A stretch of 64,000 bases of DNA. Source: Klenkia taihuensis (GTDB lineage Bacteria > Actinomycetota > Actinomycetes > Mycobacteriales > Geodermatophilaceae). Within the stretch, counting starts at the first letter, position 1, and each line of letters starts with the position of its first letter. Location: assembly GCF_900112525.1 (NCBI RefSeq), contig NZ_FOMD01000003.1, forward strand, positions 248,001 through 312,000. Reading direction: 5' to 3'. Positions 18,953-24,386 of this stretch are shown one piece after another. Below the pieces are notes generated by a model. That model was given only the letters and a program-made list of their open reading frames with translations, was not told the DNA's origin and ran no database searches. A program made the translations under genes and the position numbers.

Positions 18953-19564
18953 TCAGACCAACCGCAGCGGCGGACGCACCTCGTCGGGTCGCTCGGCGTC
19001 GCCCGCAGGGTCTGCCGACTCCTGGAGGGACGGCCGACCGGGCGCCAGCGCGACGACGGCGCAGACCAGGAGGACCAGCGCGCCCAAGCCCTTCGGGCTG
19101 TGCAGCACGGCGGCCTGGCGCCCCAGTTCAGGCACCACCCAGCGAGGGGTACCCACCACCGCGGACGCCGGGACCGGCTCCAGGTCGGCCACGTCGTTGG
19201 CGTCACCCCGCGTCGTGAAGGCGGGTTCGAGGCCAGTGGTGTCCACCCCGACCACGCGGTGGGTGACCAGCTCGCCGGCGCCGCCGGGCCGCACGAAGGT
19301 GATGACCTGGCCGACAGCGACCTCGTCCGGGTCGACCGGTTGGGTGAAGACCATCCCGCCCACGGGGATGCCCGGCTCCATGCTCCCGCTCAGCACCGCC
19401 AGGGCCTGCCCGCCCGTCACCTGCGGGTAGACGGCCACACCGAGTGCGGTCGCGGTGGTGCCGAGCAGGACGAGACCCAGGACCCAGGCGAGGACCAGCC
19501 GGAGGTACCGCACGGCAGATCGCACGCCACGATGCTGGGCGACACCGGCGATCAACCGCATCAT
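18953..19564 (-). CDS. ER/archaeal-type signal peptidase I (SipW-like)
   Basis: About 203 residues, membrane bound. An N-terminal helix (about 20-45) precedes the catalytic Ser (S61) in LSGSMEPG. The general base is His (H102 in VTHRVVGV) instead of the Lys of bacterial LepB, and the Asp is D121 in TRGDAND. This Ser-His-Asp arrangement defines the S26B/SipW class, which processes TasA-type proteins in Bacillus. A second helix lies near 165-185, with a charged tail. Start is uncertain (ATG 19564 or 19561, or GTG 19525), since the divergent gene would begin only 11 bp away. Its presumed substrates are the neighbouring secreted proteins. Confidence 0.88.
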   Translation of the reverse strand: MMRLIAGVAQHRGVRSAVRYLRLVLAWVLGLVLLGTTATALGVAVYPQVTGGQALAVLSGSMEPGIPVGGMVFTQPVDPDEVAVGQVITFVRPGGAGELVTHRVVGVDTTGLEPAFTTRGDANDVADLEPVPASAVVGTPRWVVPELGRQAAVLHSPKGLGALVLLVCAVVALAPGRPSLQESADPAGDAERPDEVRPPLRLV

Positions 19565-19570
19565 CGAAAC

Positions 19571-19578
19571 TGACGATG
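19571..19578. promoter_or_regulatory. TGACGATG motif between divergent genes
   Basis: AAACTGACGATG here matches GAACTGACGATG at 23659-23670 upstream of the major TasA-like gene. It lies between the signal peptidase and TasA-paralog starts and overlaps the latter's ATG at 19576. Candidate operator for the locus regulator; inferred. Confidence 0.4.
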
Positions 19579-20484
19579 CCCGACCGGCTACTCGAGCACC
19601 ACCCTGTCGGGGTGCCGTCATGCCTCCCGGTCCGCGTGCTCGGGAGCCTGGTGTTGGCCGCGTCGGTCGTCCTCGTCCCCGTCCCCGCGCAGGCGGATGT
19701 CGCTCTGGTGCCGGGGGCGCAGTGGAGCACCACGGTCGACCTCCCCGATGCATGGGCGTCCCGCGCAGACCAGCTCGCCGTCTCGGTGGCCTCGCTCGAC
19801 CAGCAGGAGAACGGTTGCCTCCGGCCGGAGCTCGCGGCCGGCGACACCTCGTGCGACGACGACGGGGGCGATCTTGCCTCGATGGTGTCGGCCGCCGTCG
19901 CTGCCGGCCGGTACGAGGGTGGGTCGTGCGTACCGGCAACAGCGGCCCAGCCGCTGGACCTGATGGGGTCGGGTGCCGCCCGGGTGGACATCCTCGGCCC
20001 CGAGTGCCTGGTCCTGACGATCGACTTCCCGGGCGGGCCCGACGACGACCTCGCGCAGTCCGACGCGTTGGACATCTCTCTGTTCCTCGTGGCGGGCGGG
20101 CCGGGCGCGGAGGTCGGGGCCGCGGCCCCGCCGGTGGTGGCGACGGGCCCGGGGCAGCTGTCCTCGGGTGTTGCGTCCCCCGTCGAGGCCGGGAACGGTG
20201 ACGCCAGCACGGTCGCCGGTGGCCCAGGTGGCACGAGTCGGGTCGTCGGGGGTGCCGCCCCGGGCGCGGTGACCGACCGGTCCGCTACCGGATCCGTGGA
20301 ACGTCCGGTGGGCGAGGCGACCGCTGACGTCTCGGTCGGCGCGGAGGGCACCGACGTGCAGTCCGAGTCGGCTGAGCGGTTGCTCGACGACCCGTTGGCC
20401 CTGGCGGCCCTGCTGCTGGGGACCACCGTCCTGCTCTGGTTGCTGTTCCTGGTCCTGCGACGACGTCGGGGGGAGCGGGCATGA
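19576..20484 (+). CDS. TasA-like secreted protein with C-terminal membrane anchor
   Basis: Up to 302 residues. A Sec-type signal ends near VPVPAQA (about residue 38). The following domain (about 39-180) shares a pattern with the protein at 23766: NGC, then TSCDD, two further Cys, and DDLAQSDALDISLFL against NNLVQSDSVSFGIDY. I infer paralogy, although overall identity is modest. A Gly/Ala/Ser-rich linker (about 180-270) leads to a C-terminal helix (LAALLLGTTVLLWLLFLVL) and the basic tail RRRRGERA, so the protein should stay anchored with its domain outside. No LPXTG motif. GTG at 19612 is an alternative start. It overlaps the next gene by four bases. Confidence 0.72.
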   Translation: MPDRLLEHHPVGVPSCLPVRVLGSLVLAASVVLVPVPAQADVALVPGAQWSTTVDLPDAWASRADQLAVSVASLDQQENGCLRPELAAGDTSCDDDGGDLASMVSAAVAAGRYEGGSCVPATAAQPLDLMGSGAARVDILGPECLVLTIDFPGGPDDDLAQSDALDISLFLVAGGPGAEVGAAAPPVVATGPGQLSSGVASPVEAGNGDASTVAGGPGGTSRVVGGAAPGAVTDRSATGSVERPVGEATADVSVGAEGTDVQSESAERLLDDPLALAALLLGTTVLLWLLFLVLRRRRGERA

Positions 20485-21353
20485 GGGGCCGACAGATGGG
20501 TGTCCTGTCCGTCGGCGTGCTGGCGGTCGTCCTGGCCGGTGCCCCCGATGCGAACCGGTCGTCGACGCTGGCTCTGCTGTCGGACCAGGCGGTCGTCGAC
20601 GGCGCGGCGCAGGCCGCCGTCCTGTCCCTCGACGTCCAGCTCGACGGTGCGGACGGTCAGCCGACGTCGCCACCGGCACTGGAGGACGGCGGGGACGTGG
20701 AGGTCACGGTGACCGGGCAGCTCCGGTGGGAGCTCTCGGTGCAGCTGCTCCCGGTGAACGGGGAACCCGGCTGCGCCGGGGAGGCCGGCGCCATGAACGG
20801 CGTTGTGCTCGACGTCGCTTCCGGCGCCGTGGTCCGGTCGGTGGCCAAGTGCGCCCCGGCCCAGGTGATCGGGGCCGGGCAAGGACCCGGGGCGCACCGC
20901 CTCGCGGTCGCGGCCGCCGAGGGCGTCGGCACGGAGGATGTCCTCGGCCTGCTCCGCATCCGGGTCGCGCAGGTCCCCGGTGGGTTCTCCGACCTGGTCG
21001 ACGTGCCCGTCCGGCTGGTTGCCGAGGACGGGGGTGCGGACGAGGGGGGCCGCTCGACTGCCGACGACCCGGGTGCATCGGTGGGGGAGGAGCCGGTCGG
21101 GGGAGGCGGCTCCTCCTCGCCTGCAGCACCTCCGGTCAGCGGTGCGTCCCCCGGCGTCGAGACGGCGCCCGGGCCCGGCGCCGCGCCGGAGGCCGGGACC
21201 TCACCTCCGCCGGCTGCGGAGGAACCGAGGGCTGCTGAGACACCCGTCGGCGACGCGCCGCCCTCGACCGGGTCCGACGACGCAGGCGAGGAGCCCCCTG
21301 CCGAGACGGGGACGTCAGCGACCGAGGAGCCGGCGCCCGACCCGGCGAGCTGA
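20481..21353 (+). CDS. secreted protein with Pro/Glu/Ala-rich C-terminal tail
   Basis: A 290-residue exported protein. The N-terminal hydrophobic segment is followed by STLALLSDQAVV, which resembles the A-x-F-S-D box seen after SipW-type signals. Residues about 40-180 look folded and include two Cys (EPGCAGE, AKCAPA). From about 185 on the chain is low complexity, rich in Pro, Gly, Glu, Ser and Ala, with no membrane anchor, and probably spans the wall or is shed. Its ATG overlaps the upstream TasA-like gene stop. Its 3' end runs 39 bp into the convergent response-regulator gene. I do not recognise a family. Confidence 0.7.
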   Translation: MRGRQMGVLSVGVLAVVLAGAPDANRSSTLALLSDQAVVDGAAQAAVLSLDVQLDGADGQPTSPPALEDGGDVEVTVTGQLRWELSVQLLPVNGEPGCAGEAGAMNGVVLDVASGAVVRSVAKCAPAQVIGAGQGPGAHRLAVAAAEGVGTEDVLGLLRIRVAQVPGGFSDLVDVPVRLVAEDGGADEGGRSTADDPGASVGEEPVGGGGSSSPAAPPVSGASPGVETAPGPGAAPEAGTSPPPAAEEPRAAETPVGDAPPSTGSDDAGEEPPAETGTSATEEPAPDPAS

Positions 21354-22013
21354 GCCGGGCTCCGGCCGGTCCAGCCAGCCGGCTCGCCGGGCGGCGGCCA
21401 CGGCCTGCAGCTGGGACTGGACACCGAGCTTGCTCAGCACAGCCCTGATCTGCGTCCGCACGGTTGCCTCGCTCACGTGCGCCGACGAGGCGATCGCGGC
21501 GGCCGGTAGACCGGCAGCGAGGTGGCGGAGCACCTCTGCCTCGCGCGGTGTCAGGTGCTCGAACACCGCGAGGCGCTCGGCGACTCCGGCGCGGGTGTGC
21601 CGAGCGGCGGCGAGCAGGGCATGCCTGCGCCCGGGGTCGACGACGTCTTCCCCGGTCTGCACACGCCGCACGGTGCGGGCGAGCTCGTCGACGTCCACGT
21701 CCTTCGGCAGAACCACCGATGCGCCCTGCTCGAGCGCCGTCCCCCAGACGTCGTCCCCCTGCTCGCCGGTGAGGACCAGGACCCTGCAGCCGACGGAGAC
21801 GATGGGTTCGATGAGGTCCAGGCCGTCGAGGTCGTCGCCCAGGTGCAGGTCCAGCAGCACGGTCGCGGGCGCGGCGGAGCGGCAGGCGTCCAGCACTGCG
21901 GCTGCCGAGGAGGGGGTCACCACCTCGACGACTGCGCCGCCGGTCTCGAGCGCGTAGGAGACCGACTGCGCGAACAGCACGTGGTCGTCCACCACGAGCA
22001 CCGACCCGGTCAC
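21315..22013 (-). CDS. LuxR/NarL-family response regulator
   Basis: A 232-residue two-component regulator. The receiver has the acidic pair in VLVVDDHVLF, phospho-acceptor D55 in VLLDLHLGD, Thr in VLTGEQG and Lys in VLPKDVD. A LuxR helix-turn-helix lies at about 155-215 (LTPREAEVLRHLAAGLPAAA). GTG at 22013 overlaps the kinase stop by four bases, so the pair is co-translated. Placement inside the SipW/TasA locus suggests that it controls those genes, possibly through the TGACGAT repeats; that link is inference. Confidence 0.9.
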   Translation of the reverse strand: MTGSVLVVDDHVLFAQSVSYALETGGAVVEVVTPSSAAAVLDACRSAAPATVLLDLHLGDDLDGLDLIEPIVSVGCRVLVLTGEQGDDVWGTALEQGASVVLPKDVDVDELARTVRRVQTGEDVVDPGRRHALLAAARHTRAGVAERLAVFEHLTPREAEVLRHLAAGLPAAAIASSAHVSEATVRTQIRAVLSKLGVQSQLQAVAAARRAGWLDRPEPGSARRVGRRLLGR

Positions 22014-23572
22014 CCGGCCAGCCTCAGCCCGGTGCGGCCGTCGACCACGCCGGTGCCCGGCAGCGGCTCGACGGGGACGGGTAGCGGATGGACCGGCAGG
22101 GTGAGCCGGAACGTCGCGCCGGCGGTCGCCGGCCGCGAGACGAGGTCGCCGCCGTGCCGGCGGGCGAGGTCGCGGGACAGGGCGAGGCCGATGCCCTCAC
22201 CCGGGCTGCCGTCCCGCCGTGCGCCGGCCTCGAACGCACCGAGCCGCTGCAGGTCGGTCAGGCCGGGGCCGTCGTCGCTGACCTGGATGGTCAGTACCTC
22301 TGCTACGCGGACCCGGACCTCCACCAGGGCGCCCGGGGCATGCACCAGCGCGTTGCCGAGGAGGTTGCCGACGATCACGGCGACGGCGTCGCCATCGGTG
22401 CGCACCGGCGTGCCTGTTCCGCCGTCCCACCGCACCCGCAGGCCGCGTTCGCGGTGCACCGTCACCAGGCTGGACAGGAGGACGTCGAGGTCCACCTCGG
22501 CCACGGCTGCAGGGCGCTCGGGCATGCGCAGCATGCGTTGGAGCCGGCGCATCTCGTCGGCGGTCGCGCGTTCCAGCTGCTGGCGCCGTCGGGGATCGGA
22601 CCGGACGGCGGGGTGGTGGGACGCGGACGTGGCTGCCTGGATGCCGGCCAGGGCGGCGCGCGCGTCGTGCAGGCAGCCCCTCGTCTGCTGCAGCACGAGC
22701 TCGTGCTGTGCCAGCTGCTCGACCAGCCCGGCAACGTACCGCTCCTGCCCGTCCAGGGCGTCCCCGATGCGACGGAGGGCCGCTGCGGCGGCGAGGACGC
22801 CGGCCCCGAGGAGCAACAGGTCGACCAGGCCACCCACCAGCGGACCGGGCGGGACAACGGCCGACACCCCGGTGCACGCGGTGCCGATGGCGAGGGCAGC
22901 AGCGACGAGCGCGACCGCTTGCGACGACGCCCGTCCGCTGTCGCCGAGGGGGTCGGCGCGGTCGGCGACCACGGCGACGGCCGCCCAGAGCAGGGCCGCG
23001 CCGAGGAACCCGGCCGCCAATGCGCCACGTACGGTGCCGGGGTCGGACGAGCCGAGCAGCCCCAGGAGCAGGACGGCGATGCCGGTCACGGCGGCGACGA
23101 GTCCTCGCCGCAGCACGGCCGGGGCCCGGGGGACGAGGGCGCGGAGCGCGCACACCGCGGCCGCCGCGACCATGGCGGCCTCGGTGGCCCGGGCGAGGAC
23201 GGCTGCGTCGCCGTCGAGGAGGACGCGGACGACGAAGGACGCAGGCAGGTGCAGCCCGAGGATCACCAGCGCGGCACCGAGCTGGCGGCTGCTGCCGCTC
23301 CCGGTCAGCCGGCCCCGCATCAGGTGGGCTGCCCCGGCGGCGAGGAAGGCCAACGAGGCAGCCAGCACGAGCAGCTGGTGCCGGTCGTCCCACGGCGCGA
23401 CCACCAGGAGTACCCCAGCGACACCGAGGACGGCCCCACCGCGCCCGGCGACGACTTCGCCGGCGCGCACCGCTGCGCGACGGACCGAGCTCGACGAGCG
23501 GCCGCGCACCCCGCGCGACCTCCAGCTTCCCCGCATCAACCGACCCCCCGTGGTCGGTGCGAACCACATCAC
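22010..23572 (-). CDS. membrane sensor histidine kinase
   Basis: About 520 residues. Residues 45-260 contain some seven or eight hydrophobic helices with short loops, so sensing is probably intramembrane. A coiled segment leads to CLHDARAALAGI, whose His is the likely phosphorylation site; this HDAR form differs from the common HELRTPL. The ATPase domain follows with NLLGNALVHAP (N box), SDDGPGL (G1) and GEGIGLALS (G2). Starts possible are GTG 23572, ATG 23569 and ATG 23536. Cognate regulator overlaps downstream. It is divergent from the major TasA-like gene. Confidence 0.88.
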   Translation of the reverse strand: MMWFAPTTGGRLMRGSWRSRGVRGRSSSSVRRAAVRAGEVVAGRGGAVLGVAGVLLVVAPWDDRHQLLVLAASLAFLAAGAAHLMRGRLTGSGSSRQLGAALVILGLHLPASFVVRVLLDGDAAVLARATEAAMVAAAAVCALRALVPRAPAVLRRGLVAAVTGIAVLLLGLLGSSDPGTVRGALAAGFLGAALLWAAVAVVADRADPLGDSGRASSQAVALVAAALAIGTACTGVSAVVPPGPLVGGLVDLLLLGAGVLAAAAALRRIGDALDGQERYVAGLVEQLAQHELVLQQTRGCLHDARAALAGIQAATSASHHPAVRSDPRRRQQLERATADEMRRLQRMLRMPERPAAVAEVDLDVLLSSLVTVHRERGLRVRWDGGTGTPVRTDGDAVAVIVGNLLGNALVHAPGALVEVRVRVAEVLTIQVSDDGPGLTDLQRLGAFEAGARRDGSPGEGIGLALSRDLARRHGGDLVSRPATAGATFRLTLPVHPLPVPVEPLPGTGVVDGRTGLRLAG

Positions 23573-23600
23573 ACGATCAGGGGACAGTCCATGAGCCCAG

Positions 23601-23670
23601 AGTGACGATGCGGAACTGTTGCGTAGCGACTCTCGACACGGACGGCTGACGATCCTCAGAACTGACGATG
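23601..23670. promoter_or_regulatory. three TGACGAT repeats upstream of the TasA-like gene
   Basis: TGACGAT occurs at 23603, 23647 and 23663 in the 193-bp gap between the kinase and the TasA-like gene, all in one orientation. The last copy is embedded in GAACTGACGATG, almost the same as the site at 19567-19578. These are candidate binding sites for the adjacent response regulator. Confidence 0.45.
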
Positions 23671-23765
23671 TGGGTGTGCTGTGCGTGAGGCGAACCTCGA
23701 CGCATTCGCCGAGCAGGGGCCGGCGAGCAGGCGTCGCAGAGCGGCGAACACGTCAGGAGAGCACC

Positions 23766-24386
23766 GTGAAGAAGATCGTCCTCGCCTCGGCCGCCATGGG
23801 TGGCGCGGCCCTCGTCGCCTTCGGCGCCAGCGGCACCTTCGCCGCCTTCAGCGACCAGGACTCCAGCGATGTCTCGGGCGCTCAGGCCGGGACCCTGTAC
23901 CTCCAGCGCGATGGCAACGTCGTCAGCGACGAAGCCGTGATCGAGAACCTCGCCCCGGGTGACACCGTCGACTACCAGTTCTACGTGGAGAACGCGGGAA
24001 ACCTCCCGGGCACGGTGACGGCCACCTTCCGCATTCTGTCCGACCTGGAGAACGGCTGTGTCCCGGCCGAGCAGCGCAACGGTGCCAACGACACCTCGTG
24101 CGACGACACGCAGCCGGGTGCGGGGGAGCTGGTCGACCAGCTGACCGGTTCTGCGATCTACGGTCCGGCGACCCGTGAAGAGTGCGAGGACCGCGATGTG
24201 CCCAGTTCCTTCAGCCCGCCGACCTTCGCTCAGTTCGACGGCGCGGTCGCGCGGGACCAGGCCGTTCCTGCCGGTGAGGGCTTCTGCGCCGTGGTCACGG
24301 TGACCCTGCCGGATCGGGCGGACAACAACCTGGTGCAGTCGGACTCGGTAAGCTTTGGGATCGACTACCGGCTTGACCAGGCCTGA
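23766..24386 (+). CDS. TasA/camelysin-like secreted structural protein
   Basis: A 206-residue exported protein. The signal is KKIVLASAAMGGAALVAFG, followed by GTFAAFSDQDSSD, a typical SipW-type cleavage region. The mature domain matches the TasA/CalY pattern: an early strand after AGTLYL, the NLAPGDTVDYQFYVENAGN motif, and a C-terminal strand with NNLVQSDSVSFG. It has four Cys (NGC, TSC, EEC, GFC), which could form two disulfides. GTG at 23766 has AGGAGA five bases upstream. It is monocistronic, ends at a strong terminator and has its own long control region, so it may be the abundant product of the locus. By analogy it may form extracellular fibres. Confidence 0.82.
   Translation: MKKIVLASAAMGGAALVAFGASGTFAAFSDQDSSDVSGAQAGTLYLQRDGNVVSDEAVIENLAPGDTVDYQFYVENAGNLPGTVTATFRILSDLENGCVPAEQRNGANDTSCDDTQPGAGELVDQLTGSAIYGPATREECEDRDVPSSFSPPTFAQFDGAVARDQAVPAGEGFCAVVTVTLPDRADNNLVQSDSVSFGIDYRLDQA

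Follow-up and report, generated by a model that had tools for sequence, protein, structure and literature searches.

We analysed a 64,000-nucleotide stretch of the Klenkia taihuensis genome (contig NZ_FOMD01000003.1, positions 248,001 to 312,000; here called the window) and report on six genes that occupy its positions 18953-24386, i.e., a SipW-like signal peptidase (S26), two TasA-like proteins (TasA1, TasA2), a Pro/Glu-rich secreted protein (PE), a membrane histidine kinase and a LuxR-type response regulator. We consider it probable that these genes encode a switchable surface fibre of the TasA type, which is exported via the SipW-like peptidase and brings its own anchor. The original prediction for this DNA, i.e., a SipW/TasA-like surface-protein system, is supported, and all six of its reading frames were confirmed at the coordinates it gave. 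The genes are as follows.

18953..19564, minus strand: S26, S26B SipW-like signal peptidase (TIGR02228 and catalytic Ser-His-Asp)
19576..20484, plus strand: TasA2, membrane-anchored TasA paralog (hhalign to TasA1, AlphaFold core model, transmembrane segment)
20481..21353, plus strand: PE, protein with SipW-type signal and disordered Pro/Glu/Gly tail (hhalign to the TasA1 N-terminus, tail composition)
21315..22013, minus strand: NarL/LuxR-type response regulator (Pfam Response_reg and GerE over cut-off)
22010..23572, minus strand: membrane histidine kinase with about 8 transmembrane segments (HATPase_c 61.7 bits, hydropathy, H-box)
23766..24386, plus strand: TasA1, presumed to be the main subunit of the fibre (above the cut-offs of PF12389 and TIGR04088, 8aur alignment, fold)

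The genes of PE and the response regulator overlap tail-to-tail by 39 bases (21315-21353).

Signal peptidase and secreted proteins

The proposed S26B peptidase with a catalytic Ser-His-Asp set was borne out. S26 is over the cut-off of TIGR02228 (91 vs. 51.85 bits) and under that of the Bacillus SipW equivalog NF046067 (68.3 vs. 190 bits); judged by its sequence, it is a relative and not the Bacillus equivalog. The serine of SGSM (S61), the histidine of THR (H102) and the aspartate of GDAN (D121) are invariant in 8/8 aligned copies (L041, the ninth locus of the family, is not in this alignment), and the histidine at the position where a catalytic lysine would stand assigns the enzyme to the SipW/ER type. 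A motif scan of 14 S26 copies, including that of the window, finds the Ser motif in 13, [VI]THR[VI] in 14 and GDAN in 13. Hydrophobic segments are present at the N- and C-termini.

TasA1 scores 36.2 bits against Pfam PF12389 (gathering score 22.5) and is barely over the cut-off of TIGR04088 (cognate_SipW; 19.8 vs. 19). Within its family (n=9, E<=0.01), PF12389 is found in 8 members and TIGR04088 in 4. The score against the TasA equivalog NF046066 (26.9 bits) lies under the cut-off of 450; as far as sequence tells, TasA1 is a member of the TasA/CalY (camelysin) superfamily and not the TasA equivalog. The protein carries a SipW-type signal followed by a donor-strand region (AFSDQ...). From mature residue 1 on, its alignment with 8aur, a fibre chain of TasA, takes in residues 1-51 of that chain. 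In the monomer model the N-terminal strand is disordered. The predicted fold is of the TasA jelly-roll type, with TasA as the top-ranked structural match by a narrow margin.

Two short hairpins are predicted in the TasA1 leader, just upstream of the ribosome site (11 aligned genomes). An RNA leader 5' of TasA1 (23698-23765) is not claimed: 3/11 pairs show a compensated change, with a covariation term of only -0.09.

For TasA2, the Pfam and NCBIfam scan gives no family over cut-off, and the same holds for five distant TasA2 proteins. Profile comparison points to homology with TasA1 (hhalign probability 97.8, E 1e-12), such that the claim of two TasA-like proteins is supported. TasA2 is built from a classical signal peptide (identified by eye), a TasA-like core (AlphaFold model with a predicted local distance difference test score, pLDDT, of 84.3), a low-complexity linker and a C-terminal transmembrane segment followed by RRRR. 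The core is without the TasA donor strand. The TasA jelly-roll with a donor-strand N-terminus, for which the original prediction would have both proteins checked, is predicted for TasA1 (top fold TasA, N-terminus aligned to 8aur); in TasA2 the donor strand is lacking. Eight aligned family copies of TasA2, including that of the window, show no sorting motif, just the transmembrane segment and basic residues. Among 12 distant TasA2 C-termini, 11 hold LPxTG or LAxTG and one (L196) LPVSG, in all cases before a transmembrane segment. Because the donor strand is absent and the C-terminus is a membrane anchor or a sorting signal, the data suggest that TasA2 is a base subunit able to accept but unable to give a donor strand.

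PE, too, stays below the cut-off of every Pfam and NCBIfam family. At the N-terminus it is homologous to the corresponding part of TasA1 (hhalign probability 95.2, E 2.5e-8, 82 columns), and the protein comprises a SipW-type signal (STLALLSD), an N-terminal strand, a two-Cys domain and a disordered Pro/Glu/Gly tail. Both cysteines are invariant in 9/9 aligned sequences. The description as a Pro/Glu-rich protein holds for the window, where both the SipW-type signal and the tail are found, but not as a conserved trait: the long tail is short in 2/9 aligned sequences, and therefore the signal and the folded domain are the important parts. By analogy, PE is TapA-like in layout; TapA is absent from its 2 PDB profile matches at E<=10. 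In the distant modules L118, L119 and L153, the third protein with SipW-type signal combines calcium-binding repeats of the RTX type with a tail rich in Pro, and because of these repeats this third partner may be able to display different cargo.

Conservation within the Geodermatophilaceae

A TasA1 search in 112 genomes of the family gave matches in 20 (E<=0.001), of which 9 are strong and full-length and 11 weak and mostly N-terminal. TasA2 matches occur in 8/112 genomes, every one among the 9 strong TasA1 carriers. In 9/112 genomes the genes of TasA1, S26, kinase and regulator lie in synteny, i.e., both the predicted association of the peptidase with secreted proteins and the adjoining membrane kinase and LuxR-type regulator (HATPase_c, Response_reg, GerE) are retained there. 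In 9/9 carriers the module shows the same gene order and lies between ligase genes and ribD-like/treZ genes; G077 gave no match for the ribD-like flank gene and is otherwise syntenic. PE was detected via BLAST in 5/9 loci and in the remaining ones by reading frames.

A scan of named genomes covers 9 loci from Klenkia marina, Modestobacter sp. Leaf380, Trujillonella endophytica, Goekera deserti, Geodermatophilus africanus and four Blastococcus. Two of them (L067, L072) are additional to the nine carriers above. At the Goekera locus TasA2 was not found, and PE is truncated with its signal kept.

The ribD-like gene was searched in 14 genomes, and six module-free ones were examined at that site. 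G076 shows a clean empty site with 84 bases from ribD to ligase, and the spacing is 214 bases in G007. The two genes are wider apart with other sequence between them in G056, G110 and G024, and in G083 the ligase was not seen on the contig of the ribD-like gene. Because the module has a fixed chromosomal place in five genera, inheritance with repeated loss is suggested.

Two genomes hold an extra large open reading frame between TasA1 and the ribD-like gene (L046 12781-14361, L042 12467-14323), whose start in L046 resembles, by eye, a Ser/Thr protein kinase. Elsewhere in the genome of the window, a second TasA-like protein adjoins a second S26 (35% identical; G000:C10:345654-346788, i.e., L124 5655-6788), with no kinase or regulator matches in the 12 kb examined. 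L120 and L121 represent another arrangement of TasA and S26 within the family, whose neighbours are a single-domain receiver and a histidine kinase unlike that of the module.

Distribution beyond the family

Full-core TasA2 matches were obtained in 298 genomes of the order for G227 and G238, and in 345 genomes of the class for G387, G497, G524, G516 and G461; matches confined to the C-terminus (2 and 5 genomes, respectively) were left out of these counts. A second set of 345 genomes added G958, G957, G784 and G866 and returned three already found. In this set, 70 genomes match; in 63 of them the matches start no earlier than model position 123, mostly at 190 or beyond, and these were not counted. 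A search in 396 genomes gave a full-core match in G387 only, and 225/226 matching genomes are without a full-length match, both among the matches listed. Partial matches in G984, G1048, G1058 and G1111 cover some of the core; the partial-match loci of G1060, G1072 and G1302 were examined. G156 was found via the TasA1 search and its TasA2 by reading its open reading frames.

Sufficient flanking sequence is available for ten TasA2-bearing loci (nine full-core ones and G156). Kinase and regulator are both near TasA2 in 10/10, and the peptidase is present in 9/10, which extends its predicted company with the secreted proteins beyond the family; in the remaining G497 (L154) the contig begins within the module. 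G227 shows the kinase N-terminus only, at a contig end (E 1.5e-9 to L154), and the G238 locus is truncated on either side. In L198 and L200, kinase, regulator, TasA1 and S26 are present, with TasA2 not seen. A general link of S26 or TasA-type loci to the kinase and regulator is spoken against by eight such loci (L117, L185, L186, L187, L191, L192, L193, L199), which have no match to either. Among further order-level loci, L190 shows weak kinase and regulator matches without an assigned place, and L188 and L189 gave nothing usable. As to spread by plasmids, a comparison of the L155 kinase, the sole module protein tried, with 72,556 plasmid records gave no match.

Kinase, regulator and candidate operators

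The kinase shows an H-box (LHDARAALAG), and its hydropathy profile reveals no long extracellular domain. The 17 module regulators form one clade (support 100/99) when set against ten LuxR-type regulators encoded in the genome of the window (13 tried, three too-short ones dropped). With more sequences, including one 103-residue fragment, support is 84/87.

A palindrome, CATCATC-N5-TGACGATG, is located at both divergent promoters in 9/9 syntenic loci. The window holds the following sites.

19559..19578, no strand: candidate operator 1, palindrome CATCATCGAAACTGACGATG (S26/TasA2 divergent promoter)
23651..23670, no strand: candidate operator 2, GATCCTCAGAACTGACGATG (kinase/TasA1 divergent promoter)
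23603..23609, plus strand: extra TGACGAT half-site between kinase and TasA1 (sequence scan)

Further TGACGAT half-sites are at 23647 and, within operator 2, at 23663. For both S26 and TasA2, the first ATGs fall inside the conserved palindrome, and the true starts are therefore probably further in, i.e., a GTG near 19525 for S26 (first start codon at 19564) and GTG 19612 for TasA2 (first start codon at 19576).

Using a leave-one-genome-out matrix, the two palindromes are the two best positions of the 17-19 kb stretch in 9/9 loci, and L067 and L072, which were never in the matrix, have their two top sites at the same two promoters. Within the 4.3 Mb genome of the window, the S26/TasA2 site is the sole exact match to CATCNTCN5TGACGATG and the TasA1 site one of three matches with one mismatch; about 50 more have two. 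Among 8 other genomes searched for CATCATCN5TGACGATG, 6 have a module site as their one best match, and in 2 a module site ties with others at two mismatches.

For distant modules we compared the best site with shuffles of the whole locus. Its score is reached by 0/200 shuffles in L118, L122 and L154, by 9-14/200 in L153, L155 and L156, and by 56/200 in L157; in L119 the best palindrome score lies within a coding region and is reached by 7/200. For control loci that lack the module regulator, the numbers are 46 (L117), 8 (L120) and 23 (L121) of 200. The best site of the promoter segments is the best of the whole locus in 10/13 loci, and at most 4/500 segment shuffles reach it in 11/13 loci, the exceptions being L157 (45) and L194 (12); since the segments were picked after the top sites had been seen, this test is supportive and not independent (partly post hoc). 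The L154 site is downstream of the regulator and upstream of another secreted-looking protein, and in L198 the site is situated upstream of TasA1 and overlaps the regulator gene at its 3' end. From these sequence patterns, the palindrome is likely the DNA site of the regulator.

Proposed mechanism and alternatives

In the mechanism we propose, kinase and regulator would act on the palindrome at both divergent promoters and thereby jointly control S26, TasA2-PE, their own genes and TasA1. The SipW-type signals of TasA1 and PE would be cleaved by the S26B peptidase, with TasA2 exported via its classical signal peptide. TasA1, given its predicted TasA fold and free N-terminal strand, would polymerise by donor-strand exchange as TasA does, and PE may supply the first donor strand in the manner of TapA. 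TasA2 would stay in the membrane, take up the strand of the final TasA1 subunit and so fasten the fibre to the cell; its LPxTG/LAxTG-type signal would link it to the wall in distant relatives. A wider proposal, which we hold tentatively and rate as possible rather than probable, is an actinobacterial class of donor-strand pili in which a donor-less TasA-fold subunit, fixed to membrane or wall, serves as obligate base acceptor and the whole fibre is switched by a co-inherited kinase/LuxR pair and its operator.

TasA1, TasA2 and PE might instead be displayed as monomers or small oligomers, i.e., as a regulated non-fibrous coat or adhesin for which the peptidase is needed only to process the unusual signal. 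The predicted folds are monomeric only, signal and fold do not prove polymerisation, and TIGR04088 is a domain model for the SipW signal that is not restricted to fibre proteins. However, in TasA1 the donor-strand region is kept and aligns to the fibre chain of TasA, and TasA1 co-occurs with a donor-less paralog and a TapA-like partner. We regard such a coat as unlikely.

The palindrome could also be a core-promoter element, or the site of another protein common to both promoters. It may overlap -35 positions (by eye), it overlaps the first start codons, and its assignment to the regulator is that of a candidate site. Against this, its rarity genome-wide at up to one mismatch speaks against a general promoter element, and similar sites are found near TasA genes in distant modules with the same regulator clade, which leaves this explanation with a rather small probability.

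Smaller still is the probability we give to TasA2 being a membrane-bound assembly chaperone or platform that holds the TasA1 donor strand until it is passed on. Its C-terminal transmembrane segment, the absence of a donor strand of its own and the missing sorting motif in the family copies would suit this role, but the sorting-type signals of the distant C-termini (11/12 LPxTG/LAxTG, one LPVSG) fit permanent wall attachment better. Finally, the Pfam name of PF12389 (Peptidase_M73) suggests a secreted metalloprotease system of the camelysin type, which is rejected as highly improbable: the match is confined to residues 7-80 of TasA1, which has zero histidines and no HExxH.

Comparison with known systems

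The fibre reading shares its principle with tapA-sipW-tasA of Bacillus subtilis, which is under SinR control. As far as the cited excerpts describe that system (PMC9674648, PMC10151520), both have a SipW-class peptidase, a TasA-fold subunit with a mature N-terminal donor strand and a second SipW-type substrate in TapA layout (N-terminal strand, folded domain, disordered tail), presumably PE here. The module differs by the membrane-anchored, donor-less TasA2, its own two-component system in place of SinR, divergent gene order and conserved cysteines in all three secreted proteins. The difference from Bacillus that had been predicted thus holds for gene order, anchored paralog and two-component control, whereas the last is no novelty: sipW-bsaABCRSD of Clostridium perfringens encodes a two-component system whose regulator binds the sipW promoter directly, and its SipW and polymerising TasA-like protein are, by description, under that control (PMC7395162). 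The consulted part of that report describes one operon and mentions no anchored paralog; here, we find two divergent promoters and a NarL/LuxR-type regulator. Bacillus cereus also combines several TasA/CalY proteins in TasA-CalY-CapP, where, according to the excerpt available, a chaperone-like protein is held at the wall by a disordered C-domain (PMC13082335). The anchor there is the chaperone tail, in contrast to a separate TasA-like protein with transmembrane segment. Compared with chaperone-usher donor-strand pili (FimA, CfaE), the module has no usher or chaperone gene, and its donor-less subunit would be at the membrane, not the tip.

No actinobacterial SipW/TasA module was found in the open-access literature among the matches listed. 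New are the donor-less paralog with its anchor, the layout of two operators at divergent promoters and the occurrence in actinobacteria. The TapA-SipW-TasA principle is thereby extended from Firmicutes to several actinobacterial families. With a precise candidate site for the regulator, its regulon and the inducing signal can be sought directly, and the module offers a testable answer to how TasA-type fibres stay attached to the cell.

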